DNA from: Tetradesmus obliquus | Lineage: Eukaryota > Chlorophyta > Chlorophyceae > Sphaeropleales > Scenedesmaceae | Assembly: GCA_030272155.1 (NCBI GenBank) | Contig: CP126202.1 | Span: forward strand, 2,790,001 to 2,854,000 | Reading direction: 5' to 3' | Length of the DNA: 64,000 nt | Shown: piece after piece, positions 1-64,000 of the stretch | Layout of the letters: every line of letters starts with the position of its first letter | Position numbering within the stretch: position 1 is the stretch's first letter | Made by a program: the position numbers and the translations under genes | The notes under the pieces: model-generated | Told to the model about the DNA's origin: nothing | Database searches by the model: none | The model's input: the letters and a program-made list of their open reading frames with translations, nothing else

Positions 1-61
<61 letters not shown>

Positions 62-63
62 AG
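1..63. repeat. (CTG)n tract ending in a 3' splice site
   Basis: About 20 CTG units with one TTG interruption run into CAG at 61-63, taken as the acceptor of the first visible TASH3-like exon. The tract may continue outside the window. Confidence 0.85.
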
Positions 64-3000: not shown

Positions 3001-6000
3001 TCTGGCTGCTGTTTATGCACCAGTAGTGTGCGGTGAAGCTGCGGCTGTGTCAGCACATGCGGTGCCTGAGTGAGCCAATACTTGGACCCCTTTCATCGCA
3101 CACTGCATTCTGGGGTTGCATCTTCAACACGCTTCAGGCGCCAGGATTGCGGTGCGCTCCGGCAAGCCCTTCCGCGTGCAGTGGTGTGCAATAGATTGTA
3201 TTTTTGATCCTGTCTTGCAACATTAGGTTACTTGTTGTCCTTGCCCTGCAGGCACTGGCCAAGATTGCGGTGCGTTCCGGCGAGCCCTTCCGCGTGCAGT
3301 GCTACAGCATCCTCGCAACAGCAGCCGGCGGCAGCATCGCACACCGCGCGCGCAGCAGCAGCAGGGGCGGCCACGCGGCCGCGGTGGGCAGCAGCAACAG
3401 CAGCCAGGCTGCTGCTGCATCGGCGGCTGCTGCTGCAGCAGTGGCGGAGGGTGCTAGTGCTGACCCTCTGGGCGTTGCTGCTGTTGCTGGGCCGGCGCTA
3501 GAAGTGCTGGATCACATATATGCAGGTGAGAGGTACAGCAATGCACAAGGCTAAAGTGGATCTGCTGTTGTTATCGCTATGTTCAAACCCCGTACGCTTC
3601 CAAATGTCAGCGGTTTGGGAGGTGTACACCATATGGACATTACATGCCACTAACCCTGGGATGCGCAGAGATTATGCGACGCAGCTGGTTGTAACAGGTG
3701 TTATCACACTTTCTGTAACACTGTAACACTATGCAGGCGAGCTGGTTGTGGAGCAGCTGCTGTCGCGCTACGGCCCCAGCCGCTCCGCATGGCCCAAAAA
3801 GCTGCTGCTCAACCTTGCTCAATGTCCTCCTTCAAACACTGTTATAACATGGTTACAAACCGCTGTTACAACACTCTGCAGGCCATCTGGTTGTGGAGCA
3901 GCTGCTGTCGCCCTACGGCCCCAGCCTCCGCATGGCCCAAACAGCTGCTGCTCAACCCTGTGCAGTGTCCTCCTAACACTGTTATAATGCTGTTACAAAC
4001 CACTGTTACAACGCTCTGCAGGCGAGCTGGTTGTGGAGCAGCTGCTGTCGCGCTACAGCCCAAGCCGCAGCGCATGGCCAAAAAAGCTGCTGCGAAGCCT
4101 GGAGCAGCGCAATGCAGCGCTGGCGGCTGCCATCAGCGAGCGAGTGTGCTTTGTGCCGGCCGGTGTGTTTTGGCCGCTGGGCAACGCTGCTAAGGAGCTC
4201 ATCATTGGCGTAGATGGTGAGCTCAAGGGCTGGATCTGTGTTTGTGGCTTAGTACTTGGTGCTTCTGTGGGTCATATAAAGCAATTGGAACAATACAGGG
4301 TGGGCCATCGTGCAGGTTATTGTCAGCTTGCGCATGGTTCACTTCACCACATGGGTTGCTCTGCTTGGTAAGGTATCTGCCATCAGCGCTTCACCACATG
4401 GGTTGCTCTGCTTGGTAAGGTATCTGCCATCAGCGCTTCACCACATGGGTTGCTCTGCTTGGTAAGGTATCTGCCATCAGCGAGCGACTGTGCTTTGTGC
4501 CGCCCGGTGTGTTTTGGCCGCTGGACAACGCTGCCAAGGAGCTCATCACTGGCGTATCAGGTGAGTGTGGGGCTTTGCAGCATCAAAAGTTTGATGTTTC
4601 GCCTGCACTGTGGCGGCAGGGAACGGGCTGCCCAGGTGTTTATCAATGGCATGGACAGTAGGTGCCGGATATGCCTATGTAATGCGTGCTTGGCGCCTGT
4701 CCCTGGGTGGTGACGGTGCAGGGTGGTCCACTGTGCAGCTGATCGCCTGCACATGGATGAGACACATGATGACTGCTCTTCTTTGTCACGCGGGGTGTCT
4801 GGTGCTTATCATGACATAAATGGTTGGTAATTATAATCAACATATCATGCCGTTGTGTTTTGTGTGTGCCCCTGCAGAGGCTGAGGAGGAGCGGAAGAAG
4901 AAGAAGAAGCAGGAGCAGCAGGCAGCAGCAGCCGCAGCAGCTGGCACGGAGGAGCAGGAACAGCAGCAGCAGGCCACACCACCGCGCAGTAAGGCAGGCA
5001 GTCCAAGGTATGAGCACGAGCGCACAGCAGCTCCCTACCCACTAATAGCACATCCTTAGGCTCTGGGCAGATGCTCTATTGTTCTGCGCTGCTGGCTGTT
5101 GCATGGTTTTTGCTTACTGCATTGCCCCCTGCAGCAACCTGCGGCAACTTGCAGCTGCAGTCGTCCGCAATCAACCTGCACCAAGATGTGCAACAACATC
5201 ATGCAACTGTGCCTACCGCCTGCTGTGCCCCCTGTTGCTTGCAGGGCTGACGAACAGCAGCAGCAGCAGCAGCAGCAGCCGCCGAGCGAGGAGCGCAGCA
5301 ACAGGCTGCTGCAGCAGCTGCAGGGCTACGATTATGACCCAGCAGCGCAGCCGCCGGAGAGTGAGGAGCCCTACCCGGATGACTCAGTCAGCCAGATCGA
5401 CTATGACGATGATCACTACGCCGGTGAGGCTTGTGTTGGTACTTCAAACCTTCAGCCATGGTCTATGTTGTTGTCTGTGCCCTGGGAGAGCATATTGCTG
5501 CGTGTGGTGCCGTTGGCCAGCGCTGTGAGCGTTAACGGTCCTTGACATCAGCAAAGAAAGCATGTGTTCAGCACTGGTGTAAATATGATCCAGCAGCACA
5601 GCCGCCGGAGAGCGAGGAGCCCTACCCGGATGACTCTGTCAGCCAGATCGACTATGACGATGACCACTACGCAGGTGAGGCTTATGTTACTTGTGTTGCT
5701 CCACGCTTCTGCCTTATTGTATGTTGTTGTGTGTGCTTTGGGAGGTCCTGTCGTGTTTGGTGTTGGCCAGTGCTGTGAGCTTGAGCGGTCCTTGACAGCA
5801 GCAAAGAGAGCGTGGATTCGACACTGGTGTGCGATTAAATGCCCAGCGCAGCCGCCGGAGTGTGAGGAGCCCTACCCCAATGACTCTGTCAGCCAGGTTG
5901 ACTATGACAATGATCACTATGCAGGTGAGGGCTGGGGTTAACTCGTCAGTCCGGCCATTTTTTGCCTTTCTTCTTTGGTTGGGAGCGCTGCCAGTGCTGA

Positions 6001-9317: not shown

Positions 9318-11479
9318 GCTGCTGCTGCTGCTGCTGCTGTGTATGTATGCCAGGTTGAGGCACTGGAGGCGGCCACGCGCGGGGCTGGCGGCTTCAACCA
9401 GCCGCAGGCGCTGCACCTGCAGGAGGCGCTGGCGGGTGTCATCGCCAGCCTGGATGCACTGCAGGTGGGTCGACTGGGGTTTATTGCGCTTGCGTTCTGT
9501 GGGGTTTTCAGCAGTCTGGGGCTTTTGTGGGGTGTCTGTGGGATGCCCTGGCAGGCTTCATCACCAGCCTGGAGGCACTGCAGGTGGGTGTTACCTTTGG
9601 GTTACGTCTCAGAAGTTTTAGCAGTCTGGGTTTTGAGATAGGGCTCAGTGAATCAGCATGCCCTGGCAGGCGTCATCGCCAGCCTGGACGCGCTGCAGGT
9701 GGGCTGGGGTGTTTGAATTAGGGTTTTGGGCTAGGGTTCTGTGAGGTTTCAAGCAGTGTGGGGTGTGGGCTAGGATTTGGTGGATTGAGCATGGCAGGCG
9801 TCATCGCCTGCCTGGACTCGCGGCAGGTGCGCTGGGGTTTGATGGGCTAGGCTTCTGTGGGGTTTTAAGCAGTTTGAGGTTCAGGTGAGGCGGTTGGGGG
9901 AGGCCCTGGCGGGCGATCGCCAGCCTGGATGCACTGCAGGTGGGCCGGTTTGGGGGCTAGCTGGCCAAATCTATAGGGGTCTGTGCTTGTTTGAAACATC
10001 AGCGGCAGCAGCAACAGCAGCAGTGCAGTCACTGCCTCAGGCCAAGCACAACTAAATGCTGCTCGGACTGCCGAGTGTGCTCTGTGTGCTGTGCGCTACT
10101 TCCTGGCGATGCGCTGCAACATCGATCAAACATGCAGCAGCGCTCCATGACGCTGCATACGACATACTGCTGACTTTGCTCATTCATTTCTCCGTACCGC
10201 TCTGCAGTTGTCTGGCGACGCCCGCGCTATGCGCCGCCAAATGATCGACCGTGCAGCAGCAGGCCAGGACCGCCTGGAAGCAGCACGGCGCTACGCAATG
10301 GGTGGCGGCCCCGCTGCTGCTGCTGCTGCTGCTGCTGGAGGCTCTCCTATGGCTACACCTAGGGATTGGGATAGGCAGGCGGGCTATGCAGGCAGTACTG
10401 CTGGCGGCGCTGGCGAGACTGCGGGAGGGTATGCAGCATCGGAGGCTGGAGGCGGCGAGGAGTATCAGTACCAGCCTACCAAGGTGTGTATGGCATTGTT
10501 ATTGGTTACGTGATGTTCCCCTGCGATTGGCCAATCACTAGTAACTAGCAGATGTTTATCTGGTGAGCTGCTGTTGTTGTGGGTGGTGCTGGCGAGACTG
10601 CTGGAGGCTACGCGGCGTCTGAAGCTGGAGCAGGGGAGAAGTACAAGCACCAGCCGACCAAGGTGTGTGTGGCATTGTACTGCAGTTTGGTTGGATTCAG
10701 TAATCAGGGCGAGACTGTTGGAGGCTACGCGGCGTCTGAAGCTGGAGCTGGGGAGGAGTACCAGTACCAGCCTACCAAGGTGTGTATGGCACTGTACTGC
10801 ATTTTTTTTGGTTTCAGTAATCAGTGACTGATATAATGACGGTTGTCTGCCGAGCTGCTGTTGTGATGTGGTGGTGCTGGCGAGGCGGCTGGGGGCTATG
10901 CTGCATCGGAGGCTGGAGCAGGGAGGAGTACAAGTACCAGCCCACCAATGTGGGGCGCATGTACCAGTATGCCGTGGACGCCAGTCAAGGCGCAACAGCA
11001 ACTGACAGGTTCTACTGCTAGTGCTGCTGTTCATGCTGTGTTTGTTTCCACGTGCTTTGCTGTAGCTGGGCGTCCTGTACGCTTTCGATGCGCAGGCCCA
11101 CGTTAGTTAAGTGATGCTGCTGCCATTGTTTTTTCAAGCTTCACGTCACTGCATGTTTTGCATGTGCTGTGTCGCTGCAGGTGCGCCTGCTGTGCGCATT
11201 TGATGCGGAGGCCAAGGGCGAGCTCCGCGTGGCAGTGGGCGGCTATGCACATGCTGCTTTTGAATTCACAATTTGTGCTGCTACTGCTGCTGCTGCTGCC
11301 GAGTGCAGGTGCGCGTGCTGTACGCATTTGATGCCGAAGCCGAGGGCGAGCTCAGCGTGGCAGTGGGTGACTCGCTGTGGGTGGAGTCCGAGGTGGACGG
11401 CTGGTACGCTGTGGCAAGGGACGGCGATGGAGCGCGGGGGCTGGTGCCTAGCTCTTATGTGGATGTCGAGCAGTTCTAA
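64..11479 (+). CDS. TASH3-like TPLATE-complex subunit (5' end outside window)
   Basis: Exons: 64-221, 874-999, 1272-1485, 1782-1937, 2694-2928, 3252-3525, 4022-4216, 4878-5007, 5245-5423, 6236-6378, 6729-6889, 7490-7588, 8722-8833, 9354-9464, 10208-10483, 11309-11479; all phases fit, giving about 912 residues. Plant TASH3 is a subunit of the TPLATE endocytic adaptor complex at the plasma membrane, with an adaptin-like trunk and a C-terminal SH3. Matches recalled from the plant protein are RSGEPFRVQCYSIL (exon at 3252), CFVPAGVFWPLG (exon at 4022) and an SH3 starting GLVLYDFAAEEEDE and ending GLVPKSYVQV (exons 6236 and 6729). Charged and Ala/Gln-rich segments sit before the SH3. Unlike the plant protein, about 270 more residues follow: a helical stretch, a Gly/Ala-rich linker and a second SH3 (VLYAFDAEAEGE to GLVPSSYVDV) ending at TAA 11477-11479. 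The first exons lie upstream of the window. Nearly every intron holds partial exon copies. The family call is firm; endocytic function is inferred. Confidence 0.78.
176..550. repeat. Triplicated exon-3'-end plus donor segment
   Basis: A segment of about 72 bp appears at about 176-247, 299-370 and 479-550. It holds the exon end coding LQERMLAIASDT, the donor GTGCGG and the start of the intron. The first copy is the real exon end; the other two lie downstream in the intron. Confidence 0.85.
600..925. repeat. Triplicated exon-start segment
   Basis: Copies at about 600-627, 731-785 and 869-925 share GCGCTGGAGGCGCTGCT. The last two also share the acceptor CTGCAG and the following 27 bp. Only the third continues into the full exon 874-999; the first two are truncated and lie upstream of it. 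Confidence 0.8.
1633..2047. repeat. Duplicated exon start and duplicated exon end around exon 1782-1937
   Basis: The exon start (coding SVKLAGLQAAL) occurs at 1635-1716 and again at 1782-1860. The upstream copy runs into TGA after an MMA codon run, so it cannot serve as an in-frame exon. The exon end (ALASKEEAAM) occurs inside the exon and again, diverged, at about 1991-2047. Both types of junction copy therefore flank one exon. Confidence 0.8.
2214..2770. repeat. Five tandem copies of an acceptor-plus-exon-start segment
   Basis: Copies start near 2214, 2324, 2448, 2566 and 2690, about 110-125 bp apart. Each begins with an intron end, GCAG, then about 76 bp coding AAWWLGENANFGTGEYAW or a variant. 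Copy 2 carries substitutions and an internal loss. Only copy 5 continues into the full exon 2694-2928. The intervening intron pieces are also related but more diverged. Confidence 0.9.
3134..3302. repeat. Duplicated exon start (RSGEPFRVQ segment)
   Basis: About 45 bp at 3136-3181 (ATTGCGGTGCGCTCCGGCAA region) is a diverged copy of the start of exon 3252-3525. It lies 115 bp upstream and breaks off within the exon. Confidence 0.7.
3735..4095. repeat. Three copies of an acceptor-plus-exon-start segment
   Basis: Copies at about 3732-3815, 3877-3950 and 4015-4095 code ELVVEQLLSRYGPSRSAWP. Copy 2 has an indel. The intron parts with repeated TGTTACAA/TGTTATAA strings are also copied. Only the third copy extends to the end of exon 4022-4216. 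Confidence 0.88.
4343..4559. repeat. 47-bp tandem repeat plus partial exon copy
   Basis: A 47-bp unit starting TTCACCACATGGG and containing TTGGTAAGGTATCTGCCATC starts at 4343, 4390 and 4437. The third unit runs directly into a copy (4465-4559) of the end of exon 4022-4216 (SERVCFVP type), which ends at its own GTGAGT donor. The units contain GGTAAGGTATC, a strong-looking 5' splice site in an intron. Confidence 0.85.
5331..5932. repeat. Three copies of an exon-end segment (PYPDDSVSQIDYDDDHYAG)
   Basis: Copies at about 5331-5436, 5577-5674 and 5844-5932 each end with a GTGAGG donor. The first belongs to exon 5245-5423. Copies 2 and 3 lie downstream, have no evident acceptor at their left edge, and carry substitutions such as ESEE to ECEE. 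Confidence 0.88.
6112..7145. repeat. Duplicated SH3 exon boundaries
   Basis: The start of the first SH3 exon (coding SDDDSDIVTRRGLVL) occurs at about 6120-6172 and in exon 6236-6378. The start of the second SH3 exon (VIKRDGSRGLVP) occurs at about 6594-6660 and in exon 6729-6889. The end of that exon (DDLNSFLAR) recurs at 7025-7142 with its donor. Confidence 0.82.
7486..8032. repeat. Three copies of an exon-end segment (SSSFSGMRQRQ)
   Basis: The end of exon 7490-7588 with its GTGAGCTT donor is repeated at about 7740-7795 and 7966-8034. In the second copy a TAG interrupts the frame. The copies are separated by similar intron pieces rich in TTGTGTTGCTTTG. Confidence 0.8.
8038..8833. repeat. Five exon-start copies each preceded by a (CTG)n tract
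   Basis: (CTG)n runs at about 8038-8074, 8185-8231, 8314-8340, 8431-8480, 8555-8601 and 8693-8720. All but the first run directly into CAGGCG and a copy of an exon start coding RRSVEEAD or RRSIEEAD (about 8231, 8341, 8481, 8602 and 8721). Only the last continues to the exon end at 8833. The repeat-spacer look comes from these copies and is not a CRISPR array. Confidence 0.88.
9199..9945. repeat. Exon-start duplicate and five exon-end copies around exon 9354-9464
   Basis: The exon start (VEALEAA) is copied at about 9200-9250, with a (CTG)n tract at 9286-9341 between the copies. The exon end (ALAGVIASLDALQ plus donor GTGGG) is in the exon and recurs at about 9549-9586, 9661-9702, 9794-9832 and 9904-9943, with the GGGTTTTGGG-like intron start also repeated. 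Confidence 0.85.
10395..10955. repeat. Four copies of an exon-end segment (GYAASEAG...YQPTK)
   Basis: The last 85 bp of exon 10208-10483 with the donor GTGTGT recurs at about 10580-10670, 10708-10790 and 10870-10952. The reading stays largely open in the copies. The last copy has lost the normal donor (AATGTGGGG in place of AAGGTGTGT). Confidence 0.85.
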
Positions 11480-11625
11480 GGGCCGCTGTCCTTCGTGGCT
11501 TTAGTGGACAGCGTGCACGCTTGTTTTCTTTCTTGCACGCTTGTGTCCCCTGAGAGGTGGCCAGGGACGGCGATGGGGCACAGGGGCTGGTGCCTAGGTC
11601 CTACGTGGATGTGGAGCAGTTCTGA
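11060..11625. repeat. SH3 exon copies on both sides of the last TASH3-like exon
   Basis: The start of the second SH3 exon (VLYAFDAEA) is copied at about 11067-11101 and 11178-11245, upstream of the real exon 11309-11479. The end of the same exon, including its stop codon, is copied after the gene at about 11560-11624 (VARDGDGAQGLVP to a TGA stop). Confidence 0.85.
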
Positions 11626-13994: not shown

Positions 13995-16900
13995 CAGCAA
14001 CTGCAGGCTGTTGACTCGTACAGGCAGCCCCTGGACTGCTGCAGCAGCTGCCTCTACCCCGATCTGCAGCTGGCAGTGCTCTTTTATCAGCAGCACCAGC
14101 ACCTGTTCTGTCGCCTGTTGCTGCTCCTGTGATCAGCATTTGACAACAATGCACCCACTGCACCGCCTGCATCTGCCCCTTCATACTGTCACAGGTGGCA
14201 TGCTGGTCATGTTTGACATGGTCATCAATCACATGGGTCATGGTGACGTGTCATCTTTCAACCCCTTCAATGCAAGCAGCGACTACCACGACTGCAACGG
14301 TGAGCTTGATGATCCCGCTTGCAGCAGCAGCTGCAAATGTTGCTGGTAACTTCCCGCCTAATTTGAGGCAGCACATGGCTGATCAGCAAGCGCTGCTGCC
14401 TGCTGCAGCTGCAAGTGGTGACTGTGCACAGTAGGCCACCATTGTTGCACACGGCACCGCTGCAAAACCTCTCCTGGCTTTGCTTATGAACATGGGCATG
14501 CTTTTTTGCCATTGTGCGCTTTTCATCGCTTGCATGTGTGCCCTTTTGTGCCTCTCGCCACCTGCTGCAGGCTGCTGCGGCCCCTACTGCGACATAGACC
14601 CAGCAGGCATCTTTGCCAGCCCAGCAGCAGCAGCCAGCTTCAAGCACTGCAAGCTGGCAGGCCTACCTGACCTCAACCACAGCAGTCCCGGGGTGCTGTC
14701 CCGCATGCAGCAGGTGTTTGAGCACACGCTGGCTGCGTACAAGCCTGATGGGCTGCAATTGGATGCAGCAGGGCACTCCGACACGGTAAGCAAAGCAGAG
14801 TTGAAAGCTTTGAAGAAACTAATCAACAATAACCTACAATAGTTCAGCTCACATCACATGTAGATGGGCTGCGCCTGGTTCAGGTCTGGCCTACCTGACC
14901 TCAAACAGAGCAGCCCTGGGGTGTTGACACGGATGCAGCATGTGTTTGACCACACACTGGCTGCGTACAAGCCTGATGGGCTGCGACTGGATGCTGCAGG
15001 TCACTCCGACACAGTAGGCAAAGCCCTAGATTCCTCCTAGCTCGTTTTCAGCAGCCATCCAATTTAAGCCATCCAATTTAACCTTGCAAGCTAGCACCAT
15101 GTGCTATGAAGCAGTCAAGCAACTTCAAGCAGCTGGAAGGTGCCGCTTGCTCTGTGGCCTGTAGTGTTGCTGCACAGCTCGTGCAGCATGTCCTGCAACA
15201 TGCTCCGGCTTCAAATAGCACGCAGCAAGCAGTAAGTTGCTTGGGGTTGTTGTCCAGGTTGCACTGCCATAAGAAGCAGACTGGACCTCTCACTGCAACC
15301 CGCCACCTGCCTGCCTGCACATGCCTGCCTCTGTCATACCTGGCAACTACCTGCCATATGCCAAGCCTTCCGCGCTGCAGTCACTGCCGGCATCAGCGAC
15401 AGCACATCAACCTCTCCCCACCTGTGTGTGTGCTCCCGCTCACTGCACCTGCCTGCCTGCCTGCACACTCCTGCCCCTGCTTCCTCTGTCAACACCGCTC
15501 GCCCGTGCAGTCCTTCCGTGCTGCACTGATGGCCAGCATCAGCAACAGCACGTTCACTGTGGGGAAGGTGTTTCTTATGGACAACATCTCGCTGTCAATG
15601 CGCGTGGTTGCGGAAACTGTCACAGCAGGCAGAGCTTCAAGCGTATTCAGCTTCCTATTCTCTCCCGGCCTTTGTGTGCTTTCTCTCACTCACCTGCCTT
15701 ACCGCCTGCGCGCTCCTGCCGCTTCTACCTCCTGCTACCTCCAAACACCCCTCACTTGCATGCAGTCCTTCTGTGCTGCACTGACGGCCGGAATCCGCAA
15801 CAGCACCTTCACTGTGGGGGAGCTGTTCCTCGTGGACAACATCTCGCTGTCAATGGGCGTGGTGGCAGACTTTGTCAAAGCCGGTGGAGCTTCGAGTGCG
15901 TTCAGCTTCCCAATGGCGATTGCACTGGAGAAGGTGCTGCGGGTGAGTGAAGGTCTGTGTGCGTGATGTCACGGATGCTGTTACTAGTACCCCGTTGTGC
16001 TCCTTGTGAATTCCTGATCATGCTTGGAGGTAATCTATTTCAGGGCTGGCGGTTCCTCTGCTGCACACAACGCCGGTTGCCTTTGTTGACCACACCGTGT
16101 TGCGCGCTGTCTGGTCTGGTTGGGTTTGCTGCTGTTTGTTATAATCCTATGGTATGAGGAAGGTGACGCACTGATGCCTTTTGCACCGCAGGAGCATACT
16201 GCGCATGGCAGCCACAGGCTGTGGCTGGCGCAGCGTCGTGAGGATTTCATGCATAATGTAGCTCCACCACTTAGCATTTCGTATGCAAACGTGGCATGCA
16301 TATGCTGCCACTAAAGCTCAATGACACCTGCAGTGCGCTCTCTGTGCGGCAAGTAATTGTACGGTGTGGCACCGCTGCAAAGACAAGCAGCAGCTCTGTA
16401 CTCGGGTTGTCGTGAGATGCTCGCTTGTTGCCTGTTGTGTTGCTGCTGAATGCCGTGCAGGTCTATGAGCACCTCAACCTCACCCCCGAGGCAGCCCCCC
16501 TCACGGAGCACTACGGCAGCCTGGACGTGCTGCGTTTTGCCAACAGCTATGCTGTCATATGCATCACCTAATCATCATGTGACCTGCCTGCGATGATGCC
16601 CTGCAGGTGCAGAAACATTGGACCATCAGATAGAAGGCCATGCACTGACAGTTGGTGGTTCTGTGGTACAAGAATCTGGGGACATTGAAACTATTCTCAC
16701 TTGTTGCTGCCAATCACTGTGCGCAGGTGTACGAGCACCTCAACCTCACCCCCGAGGCAGCCCCTCTCACAGAGCACAACGGCGCCCTGGACGTGCTGCG
16801 CGGCGCAGTCATGCACATGCGGCTGCACCAGCTCGGCTGCGGCGTGGTGGCAGTCTCGCCTAGGTGTGCAGTTGCCTTTTACAGCATATCCTACATATGT

Positions 16901-19900
16901 ATGCTGTTGGAAGAAAGGTTGTTGGGAATTGCTCTGCTTTGTATGCGCTGCACAGCATGGCGTGCAAGTGCTGCTGTGGTTTTCCAAGCTGTCGCTGCCT
17001 TTTTTGACGTGCTGCTTCACTTGAAACAAATCGCCGCAGGTACGCTGCACAGATCAGTAAGAAGCTGTCCTGCTTCTGGGACCTGGTGCCCCTCGGCCGC
17101 CCAGACGCCACCCACATGCGAGGCATCACCAACGCCCTGGACACCTCAGACAGCCTGGCAGCAGACGACTCCATGAGCTTGGATGCCGTCCTTGCCCTCA
17201 AATCAAGCTGTAAAGTGCAGCTGCAGACGCTGTATGGGCTGTCAAGGGGGCAGCAGTACAGCTTGGCGGCCTTTGTGGGGAGGCTGACGCAGCAGAAGGG
17301 CGTGGATGTGATTGCGGAGGCGGCGGCGGCGCTGCTGGCGAGGCACCCGCTGCTGCAGCTGGTGGTGGTGGGGCCGGCAGGTGAATGGGTTGGGCTGGGG
17401 TAGCTGCAAGCAGTGCTGCTCTGTTCAGTGGCCTATAGATTTGCCTGCTTGGCTTGTGCGTGTGTGTTTTGATGCTCAAGGCGTTGACAAATACTCAGCT
17501 TTCTGGGCAGCAGTACAACCGTACAACCTTACTCAGCAGAAATGTGTGGATGTCATTGGCGCGCTGCTAGCGAGGCACCCGGTGCTGCAGCTGGTGGTGG
17601 TGGGCCCAGCAGGTGCGCCCAACGCGTGCAATGCCAGGCTTGCAATAGAGAGAGGGGGGTGACACGGGTGTCCTTGCGCGGCATACGCCACCACGAACAC
17701 CTGAAAGGATTGGAAGCTGCAACCAGCTCAGCTCGGGCTGTCACTCAAATGAGGCTTGCAGTATGCCATGTACTGCATGCAGCGCTGCTCAGAGTTCACA
17801 TGCATACCCGGCTTGCGTTTGTGCGTCTGCTGCTTATACTGTTGGCAAGCGCTCAGCTTCAGCTATGTTGCATTCAGCCAGGAACACAGCCCACAGCAGC
17901 ACACCCCAATACACTTGCGTCAAAGCAAAAACACATACGTATGCAATGCTGAACCTGCCTGTCACCATGCTTCCCCTGCCTGCTGTGCTTGTATCTTTAC
18001 ACATCAGGTGACCCCATTGGAAGCGCTGCTGCTGCCAAGCTGTGTGCGCTGCAGCTGCCTGGATTGCTAAATGACCCTGCCTGCTGCCTGCCTGTGCTGC
18101 TTTTCCACACATTATGTGCATGTGCAGGTGACCCTGTTGGCAGCGCAGCAGCCGCCAAGCTGTGTTCGTTGCAGCTGTCAGGGGCCTTCCCTGGGCGTAT
18201 GTTCTGCCCGCTGGACCGCTACGTGGCTGGCGCTGAGAAGAAGCTGCTGCTGCGGGCCACTGACTTCTGCCTGCTTCCCAGCAGGTTTGAGCCATGTGAG
18301 TGGCGCTATTGTGAGTCGGTTATTTGGCTGAGGGGTGGTGTTGTTGATGGATGGGCGCAAAGGAGCTGCTGCTGCGCGCTACGGACTTCTGCCTGCTGCC
18401 CAGCCGGTTTGAGCCATGTACGTCATCCAGCCATCTGCCGTCTGTCAACAGCCTGGCAGGCAACAGCTAGAGGCATGTTTGGGTGCGCTGAAGTTTCGTA
18501 CCAGCGGTCAACAGTTGGTGGTAGTACACTCAAATGTCATTTGTTGAGGAGACTCCACACATCAGCAAGGCCTTTGATGATGCCTGTGGGGCCACACACA
18601 TACCAGGCAAATTTTTCTCACTCATTGCAGCTGCTGCTGCTGCTGCCGCTGCTGCTGCTGCTGCTGCTGCCACCCCCAGGCGGCCTGGTGGACATTGAGT
18701 TTGGCTGGAATGGCTGCCTCGTCATTGGCCACGACACAGGAGGCCTGGGCAAGATGCCGGGGTGGGTGTCACAAGTATTTTGAGGGTTTTATGCAGACTT
18801 AGGCACCAGGATTCAGCTTGGGGAATGTTGGTTAGGCTGCCTCGTCATTGGCCACGACACAGGAGGCTTGGGAAAAATGCCGGGGTGAGTGTCACAAGTA
18901 TTTTGAGGGTTTTATGCAAACTTAGGGCACCAGGTCTCAGCATAGGGTTTGTCAGTCAGGCTGCCTGGTCATTGGCCACGACACAGGAGGCCTGGGCAAG
19001 ATGCCAGGGTGAGGCACGCATGGCATGTTCCTGTCAGGGGTGTTGAGCAACACTAGGCGGCTGGGCAGGATGCCCTGGTGAGTGTGTGAGGCGCCACGTT
19101 TTTGGGGTTGTAAGTGGCAGGATGTCAATGCAGTGCAAGAAGTCTGCCTGTCACTGCTTGTCAATTACCTTGATGTCTCACCCTCTGCTTGGTGCCGCTC
19201 CTGCCACTTCTCCGCTGCTGCTGTTTTGCCGCAAATTGCAGGGTGTACTTCACCGCTCGGGCCAGCCACCTGGGCCACCTGGCGCGCAAATTTGAGGCTG
19301 CTGTTCATGCTGCCATGGCGCTAACGGTCTCGGACCGGCACAGCATGACAGCGCAGGCGCTGGCGAGGCGCTTCCCTGTAGAAGGCATGCTGGGCGCGTA
19401 CGCTGACACCTGGAAACACGTGAATTGACTGTCATTGCCTTTGTTGCACCAGTTCTTATGTTCAGTTGCATCTCTTTTCCCAGACTGCACATACAGGAAA
19501 GGCAGAAAAGGCTCGGGCAGCTTGCCTGCTTCTGATGCATAGAAAGTGCGAGATGGATGTCGCACATGCATTCCGAGCATACCTGCCTGGCTGTTTCTAC
19601 CTACCTGCCTGCGCAGGTGGACCGCTGCTTCAGGCAGGCCAAGGAGGTCCGTCAAGCCCAGCAGCAACAGCAGCAGCACGCTGCCAGCTTCTTCGCCAAA
19701 AAGTGGGAGCGCTGCAACAAGGGCACGGCAGCAGCAGGCACTGGCGCTGCTGCTGCCACTGCCCCAAAAGACACCGCTGCTGCCACACTCACCGACCAGA
19801 GCTGCACAACAGCAGCAGCAAATCACTCCTCTAGCAGCACTGACAACCGCAACGGCTCGGTGTCAGTGGACTGCGCTGCTATCTTGAGCAGCTTCAGCTG

Positions 19901-43500: not shown

Positions 43501-44162
43501 GTAGGCTGCTGCAAGGTGAGAGGTTGCTTTGTGAAGGCGGACTTTATGAAGATGCCTTTCGAGGATGCCAGCTTTGATGCAGTGCACCAGATCGACGCCA
43601 CCTGCAACGCGCCGGACCGGGTCGGCTGCTACAAGGTGAGACAAGGGTGATACGAGAAGAACTAACTGGTTGCGTGCTCATAAACACCTAGAAACAGCAG
43701 CAGCAGCAGAAGGTTGCCGCATCAAGGCGGCATGCCACACGCCAGACCAGGTCGGCTGCTACAAGGTGAGAGGCTGCCCTGTGCTTTCAGAAGCACAGGC
43801 AGCAGCGGCAGCAGCAGCTGCAGCTTTGATGCAGTTTACCAGATCGACGCCACCTGCCACGCGCCAGACCAGGTTGGTTGCTACAAGGTGAGCGGGCCTG
43901 TAAACACAGGGACACAGAGCAACAGCGAGGTTTCAAGCGTAGTTGGTTGCTGCTGCAGAAATGTGGCAGGGACGTGGCGTCAAGTTAGAGGTGTGCAGGT
44001 GCGTTCTTTGCGGCCAGATAAGCTGGTTGTCAGCACACCCAGTTACAGAGTCGAACACTGTTGCTGCTGCTGCTGCTGCACTTGCAGGATATCTTGTGGG
44101 TGCTGAAGCCCGGGCAGTACTTTGCCGGCTACTGACCTGTACGACCAAACAACTTCAAAAAA

Positions 44163-44214
<52 letters not shown>

Positions 44215-46290: not shown

Positions 46291-46475
46291 GCAGCAGGCA
46301 TGCAGGAAGTTGGCGGTGGCAGGAGAAGCAGCAGCAAAAGCAGCAGCAGATGTGCGGCATGGCTGGCGGTGGCGGCATACATGCAGCAGCAGATGCGGCA
46401 GCAGGTCTGCGGCGTGGTTGCTGAGGGCAGCCTGTTCTTTTTCCTGGTGCGCAAGCCGGAGAGCGCAAAGTAAAG
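45855..46475. repeat. Copies of SMT exon 8 start and of its stop region
   Basis: The exon start (FRTTKAGRY) is copied at about 45865-45886 and 45948-46015, upstream of exon 46088-46290. The exon end including the stop codon ([11 protein letters not shown]) is copied after the gene at about 46433-46473. Confidence 0.88.
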
Positions 46476-49526: not shown

Positions 49527-50344
49527 CTCGCGCCTATCTGTCACTGCTTGGACGAGTAGTTGACGCTGAGGCCTGCGAGTGGTCGGTTGTCGGAATGCAA
49601 TCGAGGCTGCAGGGCAGTACTGCGACTTTACAGGCTGTTGCAAACCACAGCGCGGCATCTGTTGGCAAGGTTGAAGGTTGGAGAAGCAACGATCTTTGCT
49701 GTTTGAGCTTCTCTGCACTAATGTGGGTACAGTGCCTGTTGCACTGGCAGTGAACCCTAGTTGGCTGGCATGTTGCAGTACCAGCTGTACTGCTGGCGCA
49801 GCTGCACTGCTGTGTTGCCAGTTTTTCTGCACTTACACCACAGAGTTGATGTAAGGTTGTAGGGGGCGAAATTTGATGATGCAGTCACCACGCAAGTGAG
49901 AGTGGATGTGCCACTCAGTGACTGATACCTGCCGCATGCAATTGCATGCGGCAGGTATCAGTCACTGAGTGGCACATCCAATTGCATCTGTTGCAACAGG
50001 CTGCTGCTCAGCAAGCAAGGCTTGCAAGATGGTTTCAAACCAATTGCCTTCGATGCATGACATGCGCAGCGCTGCAAACATACGAGCGCTATTGGCAATA
50101 CACCCAGCAAGCCCAGCGGTTCCATGCAGCTGTATACAAGCAACACTGCTGCCTCTTCTGCTGCCACCCGGTCTGAAAGTTACGCTGCTTTTGCGGCGGC
50201 AGCTTTGCACGGTGTCTGGCTTTGCTTTATGCCCACAACCACACAAAGATATATTGCTGCTGCATGCATGCTGCTTGTTTCTGGCTGCTGCGTTCATGTT
50301 GCCAGCATGCAGATCAGCATGAGCTGATCTCAGCGTTGCTGTAC
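49527..50344. other. Upstream region of the hub gene with perfect palindrome
   Basis: No further gene is supportable. It holds the hub gene's 5' flank and presumed promoter and the 78-bp palindrome described separately. Confidence 0.55.
49903..49980. repeat. Perfect 78-bp palindrome with no spacer
   Basis: Checked base by base outward from the axis between 49941 and 49942 (centre CAATTG): 39 consecutive pairs match and the match fails at 49902/49981. The left arm starts TGGATGTGCCACTCAGTGAC; the right arm is its exact reverse complement. Confidence 0.97.
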
Positions 50345-53100
50345 AGTACACTATGGTCACCGAGATGTCCAGCTGCATGTCCAGGCATGTCCAGTGGCAT
50401 GGTGTGCAACTGGACATGCCACATGGCATGTCCAGTGTGAGACTGGACATGGCCATGTCCAGTGTGCTGCTGGACATTGAGTAGGTGACTGGACACGATA
50501 CTGGACACGGCAACTGGACTTTCATAAACTGCAATATTACCATTATCTCAATGTGTTTGATGCAGTAAGCAAGTGTTCGCGGCAGGACAGCGAGGTCGAG
50601 GTGCTTGGGTTGGCGCCCTCGACCCCCTGGTACCAAGTCACTGCAGCTGCAACTGCTAAGTGCGCAAGTGACCCATGGGCTGTAACAAAATCAGCATGTA
50701 GCTGCTGCAACACAAACAGAAGCTGGCAGCTGCTGCAATCACAGCAACATCAACAGCACGCAGCTGCTGCATGACAGCAAAGGCACCCATGGCCAGCTGC
50801 TGCAATCACAACATAAGCAGTGAGGACACCACACGGAAAAGTTGCCAAGAACTGCATTGACGAGACTGCGACTCTACCACTTGTACAGATTATGCCTATG
50901 GCAGTACACGCGCAACTGCATCTACTGTGCATCCTGTTGCAGGCAGCGCCAGCACAGCAATGCACCAGCTGCCACTACTGCTGCATGCCACCATCTGACA
51001 ACGAAAACATATAAGTTCCAGCAGCTGCAGATCGCGCACTGGTCTCTGCGTAGCCGGCAGCAGCTGCGAGTTGGCAGGCTGCCACTGCCTGCATTGATCA
51101 CAAGTGTAGCGGTTGTTTCAAAGAACACCCCTGCAGCAGTGCAGCAGAAACATAGCAGCTACACTTGGATTTGCATGCTGCAGTGTAGGATGTGGCACTT
51201 GTTGAGGTTGGCGTTATTTATCAAGGTCTGGGCCGACCGGCGTTTAAACAAAAGCAAATTTGCGCGTTGATTGGCGCCCGCCACGTACCACTACATGCAA
51301 CATTACAGAGCAGCAGCGTCTTAAGCACCAACATAATCGCTGCCGCTGAATCGCACATATGAGGCAAACTGCTTGCATTGCCATACACCGCTCAAGCTCA
51401 CCAGGAAGTGCATCAGCCATGCCACGCTGCCGGGACAGTCGGCCCCTGTGTCCCTACAGGGAAGGTCTGCGCATCAACAGAGGTCTCAAGTCAATATATC
51501 GCACATGCGGTCTCCAAGCAGGCTGTCTGCTGCTGCACTAGATACAGTGGCGCCATGCTGACTGCAATCAAGTAGGACCCATGCGCGCAGGGAGAAACAG
51601 CTGGATGGGTGGCGCGCACACCACATGGGGGGCATTGCGAGCAAGTATGGTGTGTGTGAAGTGCGTCGCAAGCACGTTTCACATTATGCAACTGCTGGCC
51701 TGCTGGGCACGCTGTCTGCTGCGTGCGTATGTTCATGTGCGCGTTGCCAAGAATGATCACGACAAGCCCTACAGCAAGCCACATGCTCTTAATTGGGAGA
51801 GCTGTCACTTCACAGCAGCAGCAGCAGTAGCAGCAGCGGCAGCAGCTGTGACCTTCTACCTGTTTTTGATTCTGACCTACCTGTGATGCTGGGAGATGGG
51901 CAACTGGCGGGAGCCTGCACACAGCAGCAGCAGCGCAGGTAACACACAACGCACCTGTGGACAGCCTGCATGCACCCAGCCTCTACAGCTGACATAGCAC
52001 GGCTGATGCTGCTGCATCTGATACTGATCTTGATCTGGTGATGGTGTGATCATTCCTGCGGCAGTACTGCTGCACTGCTGCAACTGTAGCTGCTGCTGCT
52101 GCTGCTGTGAGCTGGGCGCCCTAGCAGCAGCAGGGCTGTTGCTGTCGTTACAGCCGCTGCTGATCTGGGTAAGAGTCGCTCACCATGTCATCAAAGTATC
52201 AAGATAAGCAGTAGCAGCTCCATGCGCTTTCTACAGCATTGATGTCCTGCAGGATCAACCTTGCAGCTGCATAGTGCTTCAAGGACTGCTGCTGCTCAAT
52301 GAGCAGGCATCTGCAGCCTGACAAACGCTCAATAGCCGCATTGATGTGTTGTCATTCATGATCGCTTTCAGCGATGGTCTCTGCCAGTGGGCACGCGCTC
52401 GCAGTCTGTTTCAGCCCCGTGCACCATATGCAACGCAGCTGCAGTGCGCGACACAGGTGCGATCGCTGTAATGTGTCAGCAGTGATCATTTGATCATCAT
52501 TTGCAGCTGTATGCTTGCCAGTAGATGAACAGTTCACGGGCGTATGCCATCTGGCCATTTTGTATTTTAACACATGACATACCTTGCAGCATCACGCAAT
52601 GGGGCTGTACGAGCCGTTAAACGTTTTTCATTTGATGTAAACGATGGTTTTGGAAAGGCTGCTGCTTCGGCAGCAGGGGAAGTGGCGCAATGCTATAGTG
52701 ACATGCTGATCTTCGCCGTGAGGCACTGTCGTGCCATAAGACACCATAACTGTTAATTTATAGGAAGAGACTTTACCATCTCGCACACTTTGGTGTGAAT
52801 ATCAAGCCGGTGCGGACGTGATATCGACAAACCCTACAGCAAGCCCATGGGCTGGCCAGCTGACGTGCTTGCTGTTCAGTGACACAGTATAAGCGGCATA
52901 CATGCAATACCATCTACTTGCGGCGTTTCAGCCGGGTTTCGAGCGTACAATGCATCAGCAGCAGCACATGTCCAGTTGCAGGCAGACTGCCAGTCCAGTG
53001 ACCTGCAACTGGACATGCAAACCCACCAACTGGACACGATTTGGTGCCATTGGACATGCCTGGACATGCAGCTGGACATCTCGGTGACCATAGTGGTACT
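50345..53100. mobile_element. Putative 2.75-kb inverted-repeat mobile element (non-autonomous)
   Basis: About 55 bp at 50345-50399 (contains CTATGGTCACCGAGATGTCC) recur in inverted orientation at 53045-53100 with one substitution and one single-base gap. Next to both ends are clusters of the 8-mer TGGACATG or its complement: about ten between 50365 and 50520, and about seven between 52968 and 53080. Terminal inverted repeats with subterminal motif arrays are typical of DNA transposons. No transposase frame is seen inside. A short internal repeat (CGACAAGCCCTACAGCAAGC type) occurs near 51760 and 52826. No target-site duplication is evident, so the exact ends are uncertain. Confidence 0.5.
50410..50462. 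repeat. Two short palindromes made of the TGGACATG motif
   Basis: 50410-50435 is an 11-bp arm hairpin with a 4-base loop (arms CTGGACATGCC). 50443-50462 is a perfect 20-bp palindrome, CTGGACATGGCCATGTCCAG. Both lie in the left subterminal array of the putative element. Confidence 0.92.
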
Positions 53101-53520
53101 GCCAACCTGTTCGCGGCAACATTCGGAGGCTGCCGAGGAGTAGTCTCGTTCGCTATCCAAGGGTGAAGTAATGTGAAGAAATACACTCAAGAGTACGTAT
53201 TTGGACCTTGAGTGGCTGTGCGCTGCCAGTCTCCGGTATTTGATGTCAATGAACTAACAGCGCGCTATCCGTGCACGTGCTACCCATGGTAGGCTACAAT
53301 AAGCACCTGACACCGCGTACAGCACTTACGAAGCTCTTTAGCCACTACAAGAGCGATCCGTGTCAGCTGCGCAGCGGTGCCTTTAAAGTAACTCGTGCTG
53401 TTGCAAGCAGTGTACACATTTGCAAGCACCCTTCATGATCAACTGACGCCAGCTTGCATCTCCGTTCAGCACCCTTCTAGAGATGAATGCGATAGCCTAA
53501 CATTTTGATGAGTTGCAGTG
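53101..53520. other. Flank between putative element and helicase gene
   Basis: About 420 bp of non-repetitive, AT-richer sequence that presumably includes the promoter and 5' leader of the helicase gene. No motif is convincing. Confidence 0.5.
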
Positions 53521-56500: not shown

Positions 56501-56923
56501 GCCCTCGCCATGACAACGACCACGCTGACTTCAGGCGCATCAGCATCGCACCCACGCAGCAGCAGGTGCTGTGCGATGTCGACCCATACCTGCCGCGCAA
56601 CATGTGAGCTGATGCGTGCCCGAAGCTGTCAGCAGAGCTGTGTGCGAGCCTGCCTTGTGTCGACAGCAAGCCGTTATATCAATGCTGCTCATTCTAGCGC
56701 TGGTTGCGACATGTTTAAAAACCTCTTGGTCAGCATGGGTGTAGAAGTTCACTTGTTTCAGCACATGCACATGCGCATGCAGCAACACTCAACTAACCCT
56801 ACCGCCGCTGCTGCTGCTGCTGCTGATTGTGATGCCGCTGCAGCCCTGGCGGTGCACTTGTTGCCGAGGGCATCTCCCCCACTGATGCCCACTTGGACCT
56901 GCACTTCCGGCTGACTCACCGCA

Positions 56924-56982
<59 letters not shown>

Positions 56983-59077: not shown

Positions 59078-59124
<47 letters not shown>

Positions 59125-60493: not shown

Positions 60494-60527
<34 letters not shown>

Positions 60528-63500
60528 CCACCACCACCACCACCACCACCACCACCACCTGCAACAGCAGCAGCAGCCAGCAAGCCTGACATCGGCCCCA
60601 TCCTGATGGTGACTGTCACAAATCATGCAATAGATAGCTTGATGGAGGGCCTGCTTGATGCTGGCGTGGCTGCAATTCCTGGGGAGATGATCCGCGTGGG
60701 CGGACGGAGCAAGAGCGAGCGGCTGCAGCCCTACAACCTGAGGGAGGTGAGCGGCAGGGTATGTCTGAAAGTAGGCGTCCATGGCAGACCAACACGACTC
60801 AGGTAGATTGTGTTGGTAAGAGCGAGCGGCTGCAGCCCCACAACCTGCGGGAGGTAAGCGGCAGACAATGGGTTTGTGTGCCTGTACGGACAAGTCACTA
60901 GCTGGTGCCAACAACAGACGCGCATGCAGGTTGCGTCAAACAGCATGTTTTTGGTTGCGCCGAGGGTGGTGTGCTTTCTCTGCAGGCAGTGTGTGGTCTG
61001 CACAGTGTGGTGGCAACAGGCTGGAGGTGTGACGTTGTGAAGTTGCACGCTAGAGGTCACCTTCTTGTTTATTCAACCAGGTGTTCTTAACGGCTCTCGA
61101 CTATCGCACCCTGACAGTAAGTCTGGATGCTGCGCTGTGCATTCCTGTCCTTGTTATTATTATGGCCACTGCTGTGCAGCTGGCGGGCCCTGCTGGGGGC
61201 CGTGAAGTGGCTGTGCTGCGTGCTGCCATCACGGATGCGGAAAAAGGCATACAGACCAAGGTGCAGCAGCTGAACCGCGCCAAGGCAGACAGGTGAGAGA
61301 CCATCAGCATGCATTAGCATTGACTTCAGCACTGCTTGATCTGGGGCAGCTGTCATCGTCATCATCATGTTACCATTTAAGCCATAGCAACGTTGCCATC
61401 TGGGGCAGCTGTGTTTGACGTTGAGTAATTGTGTGTCATCTGCATGCGTGCTACGCAGCATGTCCCGACAAACCAGCAATGCACTACGCTAACACTTGCT
61501 GCGCTGCACACAATGCTATTGAATGCATGAATTCCATTGACCAACTGACGCTGGGGCTTCTGCTGCGTTTTCGACACTGATTGCATGGCCCTGACACCAC
61601 CATCAGGCTGCATTTTGAGGATGTGGTGTACGTGCTGCTACTGGAGGCTCCGCAGCTGCTGCCTCCCTGGAACAGCGCCGCAGCTGGCTACACATCCTGC
61701 AAGAAACCGGCTGGCAGGTGGCAGGCAGCAGAAAGCGCAGGGCTGCAGCAGCAGCAGCAGCAGGCGACGTGCTGATGCACTGGGTTGCAAGTGATCCTGA
61801 GCAGGACTGGAGGCTTCAGCGGGAGGTGGCAGCAGCAGAAGAGGCACAGAGGCTAGCAGAGCAGCAGGCGGAGATGGGGCTAGATGGCTGGGACGATTAT
61901 GCAGAGATGATGCAGGGGCCAGGCGGCTACGGCATGCAAAGTGAGAGCAGCTTTGTGCAGTCAGTTGAAGCAGTTCAACAGGGCATGTACATGCCAAAAG
62001 TAGGGCATGTATCTGCAGCAAAAGAGAATGCATAGCAGGCGGAGAGATCTGTGTGATAGGTGTATGTCAGGTATACTTGAAGAACTCTTCCAGCAAGCAG
62101 TCGTTGACTCAAACAAGTATAACATGGTGTGACTGCAGGTTATTGGGGGGCTGACGCGCCGTCTGCCACCGTCCCTGTGGCCACCAGCAACGCCTTTGCA
62201 GCACTGGGTGACATGGCTGCAGCTGCCGGCAGCGAGCAGCTGTTAGCGCTATCAGGGCAGCCATTGATGCAGCCAATGCCTGGTGCATTCGGCTACGACT
62301 GGCAGCAGCAGCAGCAGCTGGTGCCTCCATTCATGTGGCATCCACCACCACCTCCACCACCACCAGCCGCAGCAGCAGCGGCTGAAGAAGAGGCTGCGGT
62401 GCCTGCTGCTGTGGCAGCTGCCTGCCAGCGCCGGCGTCCGCTGGAGGAACTTTTGTTTGAGGAGACTGATGCAGCGATGATGAGCAGGTGCGTGCGTATT
62501 ACATAGTGTAACTTGGGCGAAACGTGTGCTGCTACATGTGCATCTCTCTTTGGCGGCCCAAGCCTGGTTCTCTTGCACTGTCATCTGGTGAGGCGCGGTG
62601 TATGCACCAGCTTGTTTGGTTCACAGGCTCCCCGGCTCAGAAAACTCCAACTTGCCTCAGCAGGTGTGCAATTGCATATGCTGCCTGGTGCTGCTGTAAG
62701 CTAGATGCACATGCAGCACTGCAGGATGGGCTGCAGTGTGATGTGCATTGGCAGCCCCACTAGCACTGCTATGTCTGCTGCTGCTGCCGGCGCTTGCTGC
62801 TGCTGCTGCCACCAATGCAGGGCTGAGCGACAGACGCTGCTGCAGCACCTGAAGGAGCAGCTGGTGGGAGGCTTTGCTGATGCTCTGCAAGGAGACATCG
62901 CTGCACTGGACAGTCTGAACACACAGCTGCGGCAGCTGTATGACGCCAACAGCCTGCAGGTGCGCTGCAAACTGGCAGGACAAACAGAGCAAAGTGTATG
63001 CCGACCTCAACTATCAACACAACATAATGCGGCACAGCCTGCTACTTCAGTGAAAGCTGTTGTGGGCTGCACTTCTGCGTGCAGCACGGATGGGCTGCTG
63101 GCTGGCTGCTGCAGGCACAGCAGGCTGCAAGATGTCAGTCAGCGCATGTACTTGTGTACCCACGTGTTAGCTGACGTCTGTGCATCTGTGTCGCCGCAGA
63201 CGCTGCGGTGTGCGCGTGTGGTGGGTATGACCACGAGCGGAGTGGCTCGCATGCAGAACCTTGTGGAGGCACTGCAGCCCAAGGTGGGACACTGCAGAAT
63301 TGTTTGACAATGAAGCTTGATTCACAAGAGCATGCAAAGACAGCTATGGGTGCAGCTTGGGTGAGCTGTGCATCAATGCCTGGTGAAGCCTCGTGGAGGC
63401 GCTGCATCCCAAGGTGAAACGCTTGTTAATATGGCTGGATCATGGAGAAGGCTATAAAGGCCATGTTATTCTAGCTGCAGCTGCATCTTGTGCCGGTTGT

Positions 63501-64000
63501 GCAGCAGGGCCTGGTGCAGCCTTGCAGCCTGCTGTGGCTCAATTTCATGCTGCTGCATGTACAGAAGAATTGTGTGTAGGTGCTGAGATGCTGCGCCCTG
63601 CTGCTGCTGCTGCTGCCAGGTGCTGCTGATCGAGGAAGCTGGGGAGCTGCTGGAGGCACACACACTGGCCTCACTCAGCACTGCAACAGAGCACGTCATC
63701 CTGATTGGTGAGGGCTGCAGCTGCAGCAGTGTGACACAGACAGCTGTACACTCTGTTGCGCCGCCTTCATTTTATAACAAACATATGACTCAACACCCTG
63801 CCAACATGCACATGCAAATCCTCCAATGCTCCAATCCTACACCTGCTCCCCATTACTTCGGCCAGCCGGCTGAGCGTGACTCGTCTGCCAAACTTGTGCT
63901 TGACAGCTCAGCTGTGCGCGTGGCTGCTGCAGGCGACCATGAGCAGCTGCGCCCCAAGCCGCAGTACTACCCCCTGGAAGCAGCCTCAGGGCGTGGGTAC
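53521..64000 (+). CDS. ZNFX1-like SF1 RNA helicase (3' end outside window)
   Basis: Exons: 53521-53548, 53679-54093, 54536-54806, 55104-55575, 55727-55847, 56096-56220, 56480-56603, 56985-57141, 57403-57516, 57890-58245, 58768-58861, 59127-59229, 59678-59801, 60052-60200, 60385-60746, 61081-61116 (probable), 61180-61292, 61684-61940, 62139-62487, 62821-62959, 63200-63283, 63620-63707 and 63933 to the edge. All phases fit; about 1,383 residues are visible. The N terminus is an RGG-box (GGRGRAGRGGRG). Then come armadillo-like helices, FRRISIAPTQQQVL and LHFRLTHYDLLADL, matching ZNFX1 before its helicase core. Walker A is ALIQGPPGTG/KT; later motifs are ARVVGMTTSGVA, LIEEAGELLEAHTLA and ILIGDHEQLRP. 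Animal ZNFX1 binds RNA in antiviral sensing and small-RNA inheritance. NFX1-type zinc fingers would lie beyond the window. A Pro/Ala-rich insert sits between motifs I and Ia. Start ATG 53521 is chosen because its 28-nt exon ends in the phase needed by the RGG exon. Confidence 0.85.
56835..57265. repeat. Helicase-gene exon copies with (CTG)n tract
   Basis: The start of exon 56985-57141 (ALVAEGISPTDAHLDLHFRL) is copied at about 56840-56925. A (CTG)n tract at 56928-56981 ends in TAG at the acceptor. The exon end (MKDAGGIAGLDAR) is copied downstream at 57187-57262. Confidence 0.88.
58520..58740. repeat. CTGCCTGTA minisatellite and partial exon copy
   Basis: A 9-base unit CTGCCTGTA or variants is repeated about ten times at 58527-58620 and again at 58697-58735. 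Between them, 58645-58690 resembles the acceptor and start of exon 58768-58861. Confidence 0.8.
59020..59185. repeat. Duplicated exon start and (CTG)n acceptor tract
   Basis: 59022-59075 (ASNTCLACKLILKALQ) is a diverged copy of the start of exon 59127-59229 (ASNSFFAYEPILKALQ). A CTG run at 59079-59124 lies between them and ends in the real acceptor. Confidence 0.87.
60475..60580. repeat. Pro/Ala-coding CCA and CAG repeats inside the helicase core
   Basis: Runs of CCA/CCT, CAG and ACC code P(7)A(9)GP(11)-type sequence within exon 60385-60746, between Walker A and the next conserved helicase block (ILMVTVTNHAIDSLM). Confidence 0.9.
60705..60860. repeat. Copy of helicase exon end (SERLQPYNLRE)
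   Basis: The exon end and donor at 60746 recur at about 60812-60860 with the donor GTAAGC. A weaker copy of the VEALQPK exon end (63262-63290) recurs near 63389-63417. Confidence 0.8.

Follow-up and report, generated by a model that had tools for sequence, protein, structure and literature searches.

Many introns of the green alga Tetradesmus obliquus contain partial copies of the edges of their own neighbouring exons, left by local, direct duplications of about 120 bp that are tolerated where the protein gains nothing. These hidden copies were analysed in a window of 64,000 bp (C12:2790001-2854000; features within it are given in window positions, and the exons and copies listed lie on the plus strand) and in 20 further 10-kb loci spread over the genome (104.7 Mb, 17 contigs). 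Among the genes of the window, the one encoding sterol C-24 methyltransferase (SMT) displays the copies most fully modelled here. The favoured explanation, to which a probability of roughly 0.64 is given, is short tandem duplication together with exchange with diverged coding alleles, the second half being suggested by an excess of synonymous differences between hidden and intact copies.

Self-BLAST of the window and the spread loci (E ≤ 1e-5) yielded 82 direct local pairs and 1 inverted pair in the window, and 175 direct pairs in the 20 loci, or 257 direct versus 2 inverted pairs in all; direct orientation at short distance is what local tandem duplication leaves behind. At least one pair occurs in 17 of the 20 spread loci, and none in the other three (L002, L003, and L005). 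Copy formation is widespread yet patchy, and very uneven between genes. The preliminary description of this DNA had counted about 20 sets and over 40 copies in the window. A looser cut (E ≤ 1e-3, gap-free blocks) gives 61 block groups and 147 intervals there, which is an over-count, since gaps split one duplication into 2-3 groups and intron-only repeats are included. When bases were labelled crudely by codon score, repeats covered 25% of the exon-like, 21% of the intron-like, and 11.5% of the remaining bases, a labelling too coarse to tell whether repeats avoid intergenic DNA. Overlapping matches of like kind were also returned by a Pfam Cpn60/TCP1 search, for example three at C16:4172823-4173294 (profile positions 42-69, 38-71, and 40-101). 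As a separate observation, positions 23600-36800 of the window hold no local repeat set at the looser cut, whereas other parts of the window are rich in them; the long open reading frames of this stretch look single-exon, and a BACK domain is found at 28085-29416.

The polarity of the copies was determined by asking which copy of each repeat block runs on as coding sequence, using a codon score whose training set of 2801 codons was drawn from the methyltransferase exons, a long open reading frame, and ABC-transporter matches, and overlaps in part with the DNA tested. The data set (the window, the 20 spread loci, and 19 of 21 ABC loci; 327 kb) comprised 305 non-redundant blocks, or 304 after removal of one ABC place present twice in the overlapping loci L028 and L032. 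The main counts of polarity (70 pairs) and of nonsynonymous (N) and synonymous (S) differences (66 pairs) were recomputed without the doubled place, with the frame and the intact copy picked blind to the hidden copy; the doubled place is still inside the intron-homology, splice-retention, noncoding- and coding-like offset, 157-pair, and indel counts. Seventy of the 304 blocks could be classified: 36 are donor-type with the upstream copy intact, 32 are acceptor-type with the downstream copy intact, and one of each type has the opposite arrangement. The other 234 stayed unclassified, as they are noncoding or ambiguous, touch the end of a locus, or look coding on both sides of the pair. Counted by sets, 58 of 60 show the expected polarity, 1 is mixed, and 1 is opposite; both opposite pairs belong to spread loci. 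Scoring both copies, as was done under an earlier rule, gave 34 + 34 expected versus 1 + 1 opposite pairs, and a looser rule gave 44 + 41 versus 3 + 3 (doubled ABC place included). The preliminary description held that partial copies of exon edges lie in the introns and that they are directional, with exon-start copies upstream and exon-end copies downstream of the intact exon. Both statements agree with the 257 direct versus 2 inverted pairs and with the 68 of 70 classified pairs of the stated polarity, in place of the equal numbers of opposite pairs that would contradict a directional pattern. The polarity exists because the reading frame, and with it the protein, must be kept, and any in-place duplication that spares the protein necessarily shows it. 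It marks the copies as tolerated by-products and not as products of a special mechanism.

In many pairs the edges of the repeat cores cluster at the splice consensus, and the splice sites of the hidden copies are largely retained (GT in 32 of 34, AG in 30 of 31, one place counted twice). In a few donor-type pairs the end is marked by a stop codon and not by a donor. When coding-like pairs were checked for two splice sites, neither copy was extended by coding sequence in 47 of 157, and in 9 of these 47 signals were shared at the two edges, so that some full exon copies may exist. In 33 of 85 expected-polarity pairs the opposite edge, too, carries a weak GT or AG, as often happens by chance with such short motifs. 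In the 70 classified pairs the exon runs on from one copy only, as the classification rule itself requires.

The SMT gene illustrates this arrangement exon by exon. The hand-built gene model is 100% identical over 221 aa to the annotated T. obliquus protein P0001, and the exons taken as intact are therefore those of the annotation; the match assigns the DNA to this species or to a very close relative of it. Partial copies are found in the adjacent intron for five of its eight exons (E3, E5, E6, E7, and E8), on the sides given in the preliminary description. Downstream of exon 1 (40513-40596; tblastn of P0001, 100%), intact exon 3 (41557-41665, edges approximate) is followed at a distance of 122 bp by a copy of its end and donor (41748-41804), and exon 4 has a very short copy 101 bp upstream (42488-42522), consisting of the acceptor region and, as read from the sequence, about 10 exon bases. 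Intact exon 5 (43186-43377; 100% to P0001) is flanked on both sides: a copy of its acceptor and start lies 116 bp upstream (43061-43122), and three copies of its end and donor lie downstream, the first with the start of the intron as well (43526-43664), the second shorter (43710-43785), and the third (43821-43893) with 7 differences in 21 codons, all 7 of them synonymous. Four copies of the acceptor and start of exon 6 (44080-44525) precede the intact exon (44571-44711), and all four lack the same 14 exon bases and share an in-frame TGA. Intact exon 7 (45210-45341) is preceded by two copies of its acceptor and start (44947-45136) and followed by three copies of its end (45381-45684), in the last of which the donor GT is gone as read from the sequence. 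A copy of the acceptor and start of exon 8 (45943-46015) lies ahead of the intact exon with its stop codon (46087-46290). The last SMT codons and the stop codon are copied again 3' of the gene (46432-46474), where no splice site is spanned. The SMT copies alone contain 20 N and 38 S differences, in stretches chosen by protein match.

The duplicated unit has a preferred length. After masking of simple repeats, the nearest copy lies at 100-149 bp in 79 of 132 pairs and below 100 bp in 3, with a smaller rise near 220-260 bp, about twice the unit. Noncoding-like pairs (0.54 of 69 at 100-150 bp, median 123) have the same mode as coding-like pairs (0.55 of 121, median 137), which indicates that the unit length is set by the mutational step and not by splicing. 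Complete tandem units in the offset survey (n = 24) share this mode, with a median of 117 bp and one fifth below 90 bp, and in 17 complete tandem units of 85-100% identity, at offsets of 58-138, the matched length equals the offset. The emphasis that the preliminary description had placed on splice junctions did not hold up, as noncoding-like pairs share the unit length and stop codons are crossed as well (46432-46474 and 11557-11624); a mechanism specific to splice junctions is accordingly disfavoured. CTG/CAG tracts were also considered as breakpoints and rejected: exon-side edges lie near such a hexamer at a frequency of 0.20, versus 0.14 inside cores (n = 69), and all block edges at 0.23, versus 0.22 for the genome background; neither comparison showed an association.

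The position of the breakpoints can be approached through the sequence flanking the repeat cores. Homology continues past the core on the intron side in 26 of 65 testable pairs (25 of 64 after removal of the doubled ABC place) and on the exon side in 9 of 65 (P < 0.05 each; Fisher P = 0.0014). This difference argues for a duplication whose breakpoints lie one within the exon and one within the intron. Most flanks are not alignable. For comparison, plain duplications were simulated with 5-15% neutral divergence per lineage and a BLAST step of similar kind, and more than 25 nt of the intron were reached in 89-100% of the pairs detected. The tandem duplication across exon-intron junctions proposed in the preliminary description is upheld as to its direct, local, and directional character, and the intron-side homology that it entails is visible in a minority of the pairs.

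The differences between hidden and intact copies carry information on their history. In 66 pairs (the 68 of expected polarity minus 2 with fewer than 24 trimmed nt), 132 N and 209 S differences were counted, an N fraction of 0.39 (0.32-0.45, bootstrap over 57 sets). A neutral hidden copy next to an exon changing only synonymously predicts 0.56, and the simulated pipeline gives 0.59-0.61; plain duplication followed by neutral decay is thus not supported on this point. GC-to-AT bias was rejected as the cause, because even an extreme bias leaves the expected N fraction at 0.50. The N rate is 0.050 and the S rate 0.21, a fourfold difference against the twofold one expected from plain duplication, and the S excess over twice the N rate amounts to 0.110 (0.074-0.146, same bootstrap). 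Faster mutation at third positions was likewise rejected, for N changes occur there at about the same rate as elsewhere (0.052, 0.045, and 0.062 over the three codon positions). On the other hand, 20 of 21 indels in the hidden cores (69 pairs) are not multiples of three, and together with the 14-base loss and in-frame stop of the exon 6 copies they indicate that the hidden copies are apparently not translated. The 21 indels come near to the approximately 24 that the N changes predict at the indel/substitution ratio of noncoding pairs (132/0.72 x 0.129). Most simply read, the hidden copies are young as non-coding DNA, and the synonymous divergence between hidden and intact copy was in place beforehand.

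A paralogue without copies allows some of these changes to be assigned to a branch. Five exons of a glycosyltransferase-like gene in the window (16400-19425) match a locus at C2:1624500-1633500 (L042) at 79-90%, and no local repeat was found in the 9 kb of this locus at E ≤ 1e-5. The paralogue still has introns between the same five exons (one gene compared). Their lengths in paralogue and window, taken from BLAST edges, are 129 and 162 bp for the intron without a copy, 323 and 727 (two copies), 328 and 323 (one copy), and 316 and 474 (two copies), so that two of three copy-bearing introns are longer in the window gene. The claim of a genome-wide route of intron growth is thus sustained in part: pairs occur in most spread loci and two of three comparable introns have grown, but the process is patchy and a paralogue lacks it over 9 kb. 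With the paralogue as outgroup, six comparisons (104 codons) assign 4 N and 9 S changes to the hidden branch and 3 N and 11 S changes to the intact branch, with 2 sites differing three ways. A neutral hidden branch would have about 72% N changes, and the observed 4 N to 9 S departs from this (P = 0.002). Hidden copies sometimes retain the ancestral state where the intact exon has changed. The private changes of the C2 paralogue rule it out as the source of the copies. A second paralogue, on C10, shows short matches only and itself contains two local pairs. The ABC cluster L022-L024 was of no use for dating, as no listed pair lies in L023 and the pairs in L022 and L024 are noncoding-like.

According to the favoured explanation, head-to-tail duplications of about 100-140 bp arise locally and repeatedly in the genome. 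Where the breakpoints fall in an exon and the adjacent intron, the frame is kept only if the copy joined to the rest of the exon is used, and the spare copy ends up inside the intron, exon-end copies downstream and exon-start copies upstream. The same events are tolerated inside introns or past a stop codon, and events wholly within exons presumably are mostly not. The pair may start above zero divergence, or may not stay isolated, as the S excess looks accumulated while both lineages coded. Diverged alleles could enter through unequal exchange or template switching between diverged homologues, or through later allelic or inter-copy exchange, after which the hidden copy would decay neutrally. 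Several observations weigh against this explanation. The synonymous divergence that it needs (about 0.1) would be very high for alleles of one species, and the exchange step is reached by deduction. No significant intron-side homology is present in 39 of 65 pairs, in which the duplication unit itself is therefore invisible, and an earlier test anchored at the core edges detected hardly any (7 of 81 on the intron side and 6 of 81 on the exon side, with P < 0.05). The S excess is stronger in donor-type (N 58, S 120) than in acceptor-type pairs (N 74, S 89), and S differences are no scarcer in pairs that keep intron homology (39 N, 94 S) than in the rest (87 N, 125 S), the frames for this split having been picked from both copies. 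Indels are fewer per substitution in hidden cores (0.052) than in noncoding pairs (0.129), which also fits some constraint. The outgroup test consists of six comparisons in one gene, two of which share one intact exon. When informative sites of the exon 6 array were compared two by two, all four combinations occurred in 6 of 28 pairs, as exchange would produce; all six conflicts involve one column, so the signal is weak and a single repeated change would suffice. A narrower version, in which a back-jump of about 120 bp in repair or replication takes the diverged homologous chromosome as template and joins an exon piece of one allele to the intron and exon of the other, is possible but unlikely in that form; if true, introns would preserve earlier coding alleles of the gene they belong to, and with them a record of past synonymous variation.

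The other explanations account for parts of the data. Plain intrachromosomal tandem duplication across splice junctions, as in the preliminary description, with subsequent neutral decay of the hidden copy, explains the direct orientation, the polarity, identities spanning 75-100%, the frame-breaking indels, and the complete units; its expectations of N fraction (0.56 when neutral, 0.50 under extreme bias, 0.59-0.61 when simulated, versus 0.39 in the 66 pairs) and of reach into the intron (simulated 89-100% beyond 25 nt, versus intron-side homology in 26 of 65 real pairs) make it improbable as it stands. Purifying selection on the hidden copies, either because they serve in alternative or poison exons or because an N change might endanger the exon through gene conversion, would give the N depletion, the retained GT and AG, the 4 N to 9 S on the hidden branch, and an indel rate about half that of noncoding pairs. 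With the S rate as yardstick, both N changes and indels are at about half of the neutral level, which is compatible with constraint. Such selection is nonetheless doubtful, as the frame is disrupted by 20 of 21 indels, the 14-base loss and the TGA are common to the four exon 6 copies, and retention of splice sites is equally expected of young copies (h about 0.05); the form that acts through gene conversion may still apply. Intron-borne mobile units of the introner kind, or templated insertions from elsewhere, could explain core edges lying on the splice consensus, as an exon-copying process would give, but are very improbable, because the copies derive from the neighbouring exon in direct orientation. 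Nor was the same element found in many genes for the two genes tested: the methyltransferase protein has no other close locus (other matches 34-59% identity), and, among the best candidates scored, a 441-bp glycosyltransferase array matches its own place and two paralogous exons, its 69 further matches all falling within its first 67 bases, where its CTG tract lies. A comparison of spacers (294 cross-locus matches, of which the 25 listed come from two spacers) was uninformative on introners. Tandem copies are a known source of assembly error; most of those described here differ by several per cent, have unique spacers, and lie on many contigs, and the published UTEX393 assembly also has unusually long introns (mean 462 bp, in the tabulated part of PMC5966456), which leaves an artefact with a negligible probability.

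Further copies are found elsewhere in the window. The glycosyltransferase-like gene contains an acceptor and exon-start copy (16457-16535) ahead of an intact exon (16723-16870, 90% to the C2 paralogue), an exon-end and donor copy (17528-17616), a second acceptor and exon-start copy (18004-18051), a further exon-end and donor copy (18360-18420; intact at 18238-18298), and an intact exon end and donor followed by two hidden copies with a period of 123 (18712-19014). An exon end with its stop codon is followed by a downstream copy 146 bp apart (11411-11624, the copy at 11557-11624). A complete head-to-tail duplication with a unit of 117 bp, 90% identical, spans an apparent exon end and donor (10591-10825). 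An exon end and donor with two hidden copies has a period of about 250 (5333-5931), and an array of about five acceptor and exon-start copies has a period of about 111-119 (2197-2772). At 4342-4482 a 47-bp unit is present three times at 100% identity and runs into a hidden exon copy at 4471, in what looks like a very recent expansion. On the same strand and 4 kb apart lie the start of an alpha-amylase domain (PF00128; 12823-13344) and a glycosyltransferase piece (PF00534; 17008-17400, just below the cut-off), which we take, from their resemblance, to be possibly parts of one fused alpha-glucan-synthase-like gene. The window also holds a perfect 78-bp palindrome with zero mismatches to its own reverse complement (49903-49980), and an inverted repeat pair of 56 bp at 96% (50344-50399 and 53045-53101), 2.7 kb apart in a stretch otherwise poor in repeats.

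Small duplications within genes are reportedly common, some of them including intron sequence, in the outline of internal gene duplication by Gao and Lynch in 2009; to our knowledge, neither a fixed unit of about 120 bp nor excess synonymous divergence in hidden copies forms part of that account. Tandem exon duplication, as in mutually exclusive exons, also places exon copies in a neighbouring intron, but these are whole exons that keep an open frame and have both splice sites. The classified copies of T. obliquus, in contrast, cover one exon edge, and their frame is not kept, being broken by 20 of the 21 indels. Tandem duplication is well described as a source of introns (PMC3443670; PMC4974935). 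Intron gain by tandem duplication, as presented there, resembles the present case in that the duplication lies within the gene, the protein is unchanged, and splice sites choose the copy that enters the mRNA; it differs in that an exonic AGGT segment makes a new intron, whereas existing introns are enlarged in T. obliquus (PMC3443670). In addition, the hidden copies of T. obliquus carry intron-derived splice consensus, and the copy-free paralogue already has the introns. The potato RdRp gene is closer, since an intron-exon junction is duplicated in direct orientation, and an 83-bp duplication internal to an intron of the gene left the structure unchanged (PMC4974935). That instance stands alone and gave rise to a new intron and exon, whereas 70 classified junction copies are present here in 327 kb, none of them shown to create an exon. 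Introners share the burst of intron sequence in particular lineages, but are dispersed copies of one element (PMC9860276), whereas each copy in T. obliquus comes from its own neighbouring exon. No title or abstract on such copies in T. obliquus or other Scenedesmaceae was found in the open-licence literature, which leaves subscription journals mostly outside. Nor did that literature yield a case in which existing introns are enlarged so densely by junction-spanning copies that have a preferred unit length and an excess of synonymous divergence.

The mean intron of T. obliquus UTEX393 is 462 bp, versus 230-302 bp in four other green algae (PMC5966456, Table 1), and the long introns fit with intron growth in this species. 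The hidden copies can mislead gene predictors and domain searches made exon by exon, as the overlapping Cpn60/TCP1 matches illustrate, and the spliceosome's choice is put to a natural test by numerous duplicates of splice sites at a distance of about 120 nt from the genuine ones. Intron growth by this route is frequent in the one genome studied here; its unit length can be measured, and the coding-sequence copies that it deposits in introns can be dated. Should the synonymous excess stem from diverged alleles, the introns of T. obliquus would keep samples of coding alleles that have been lost.

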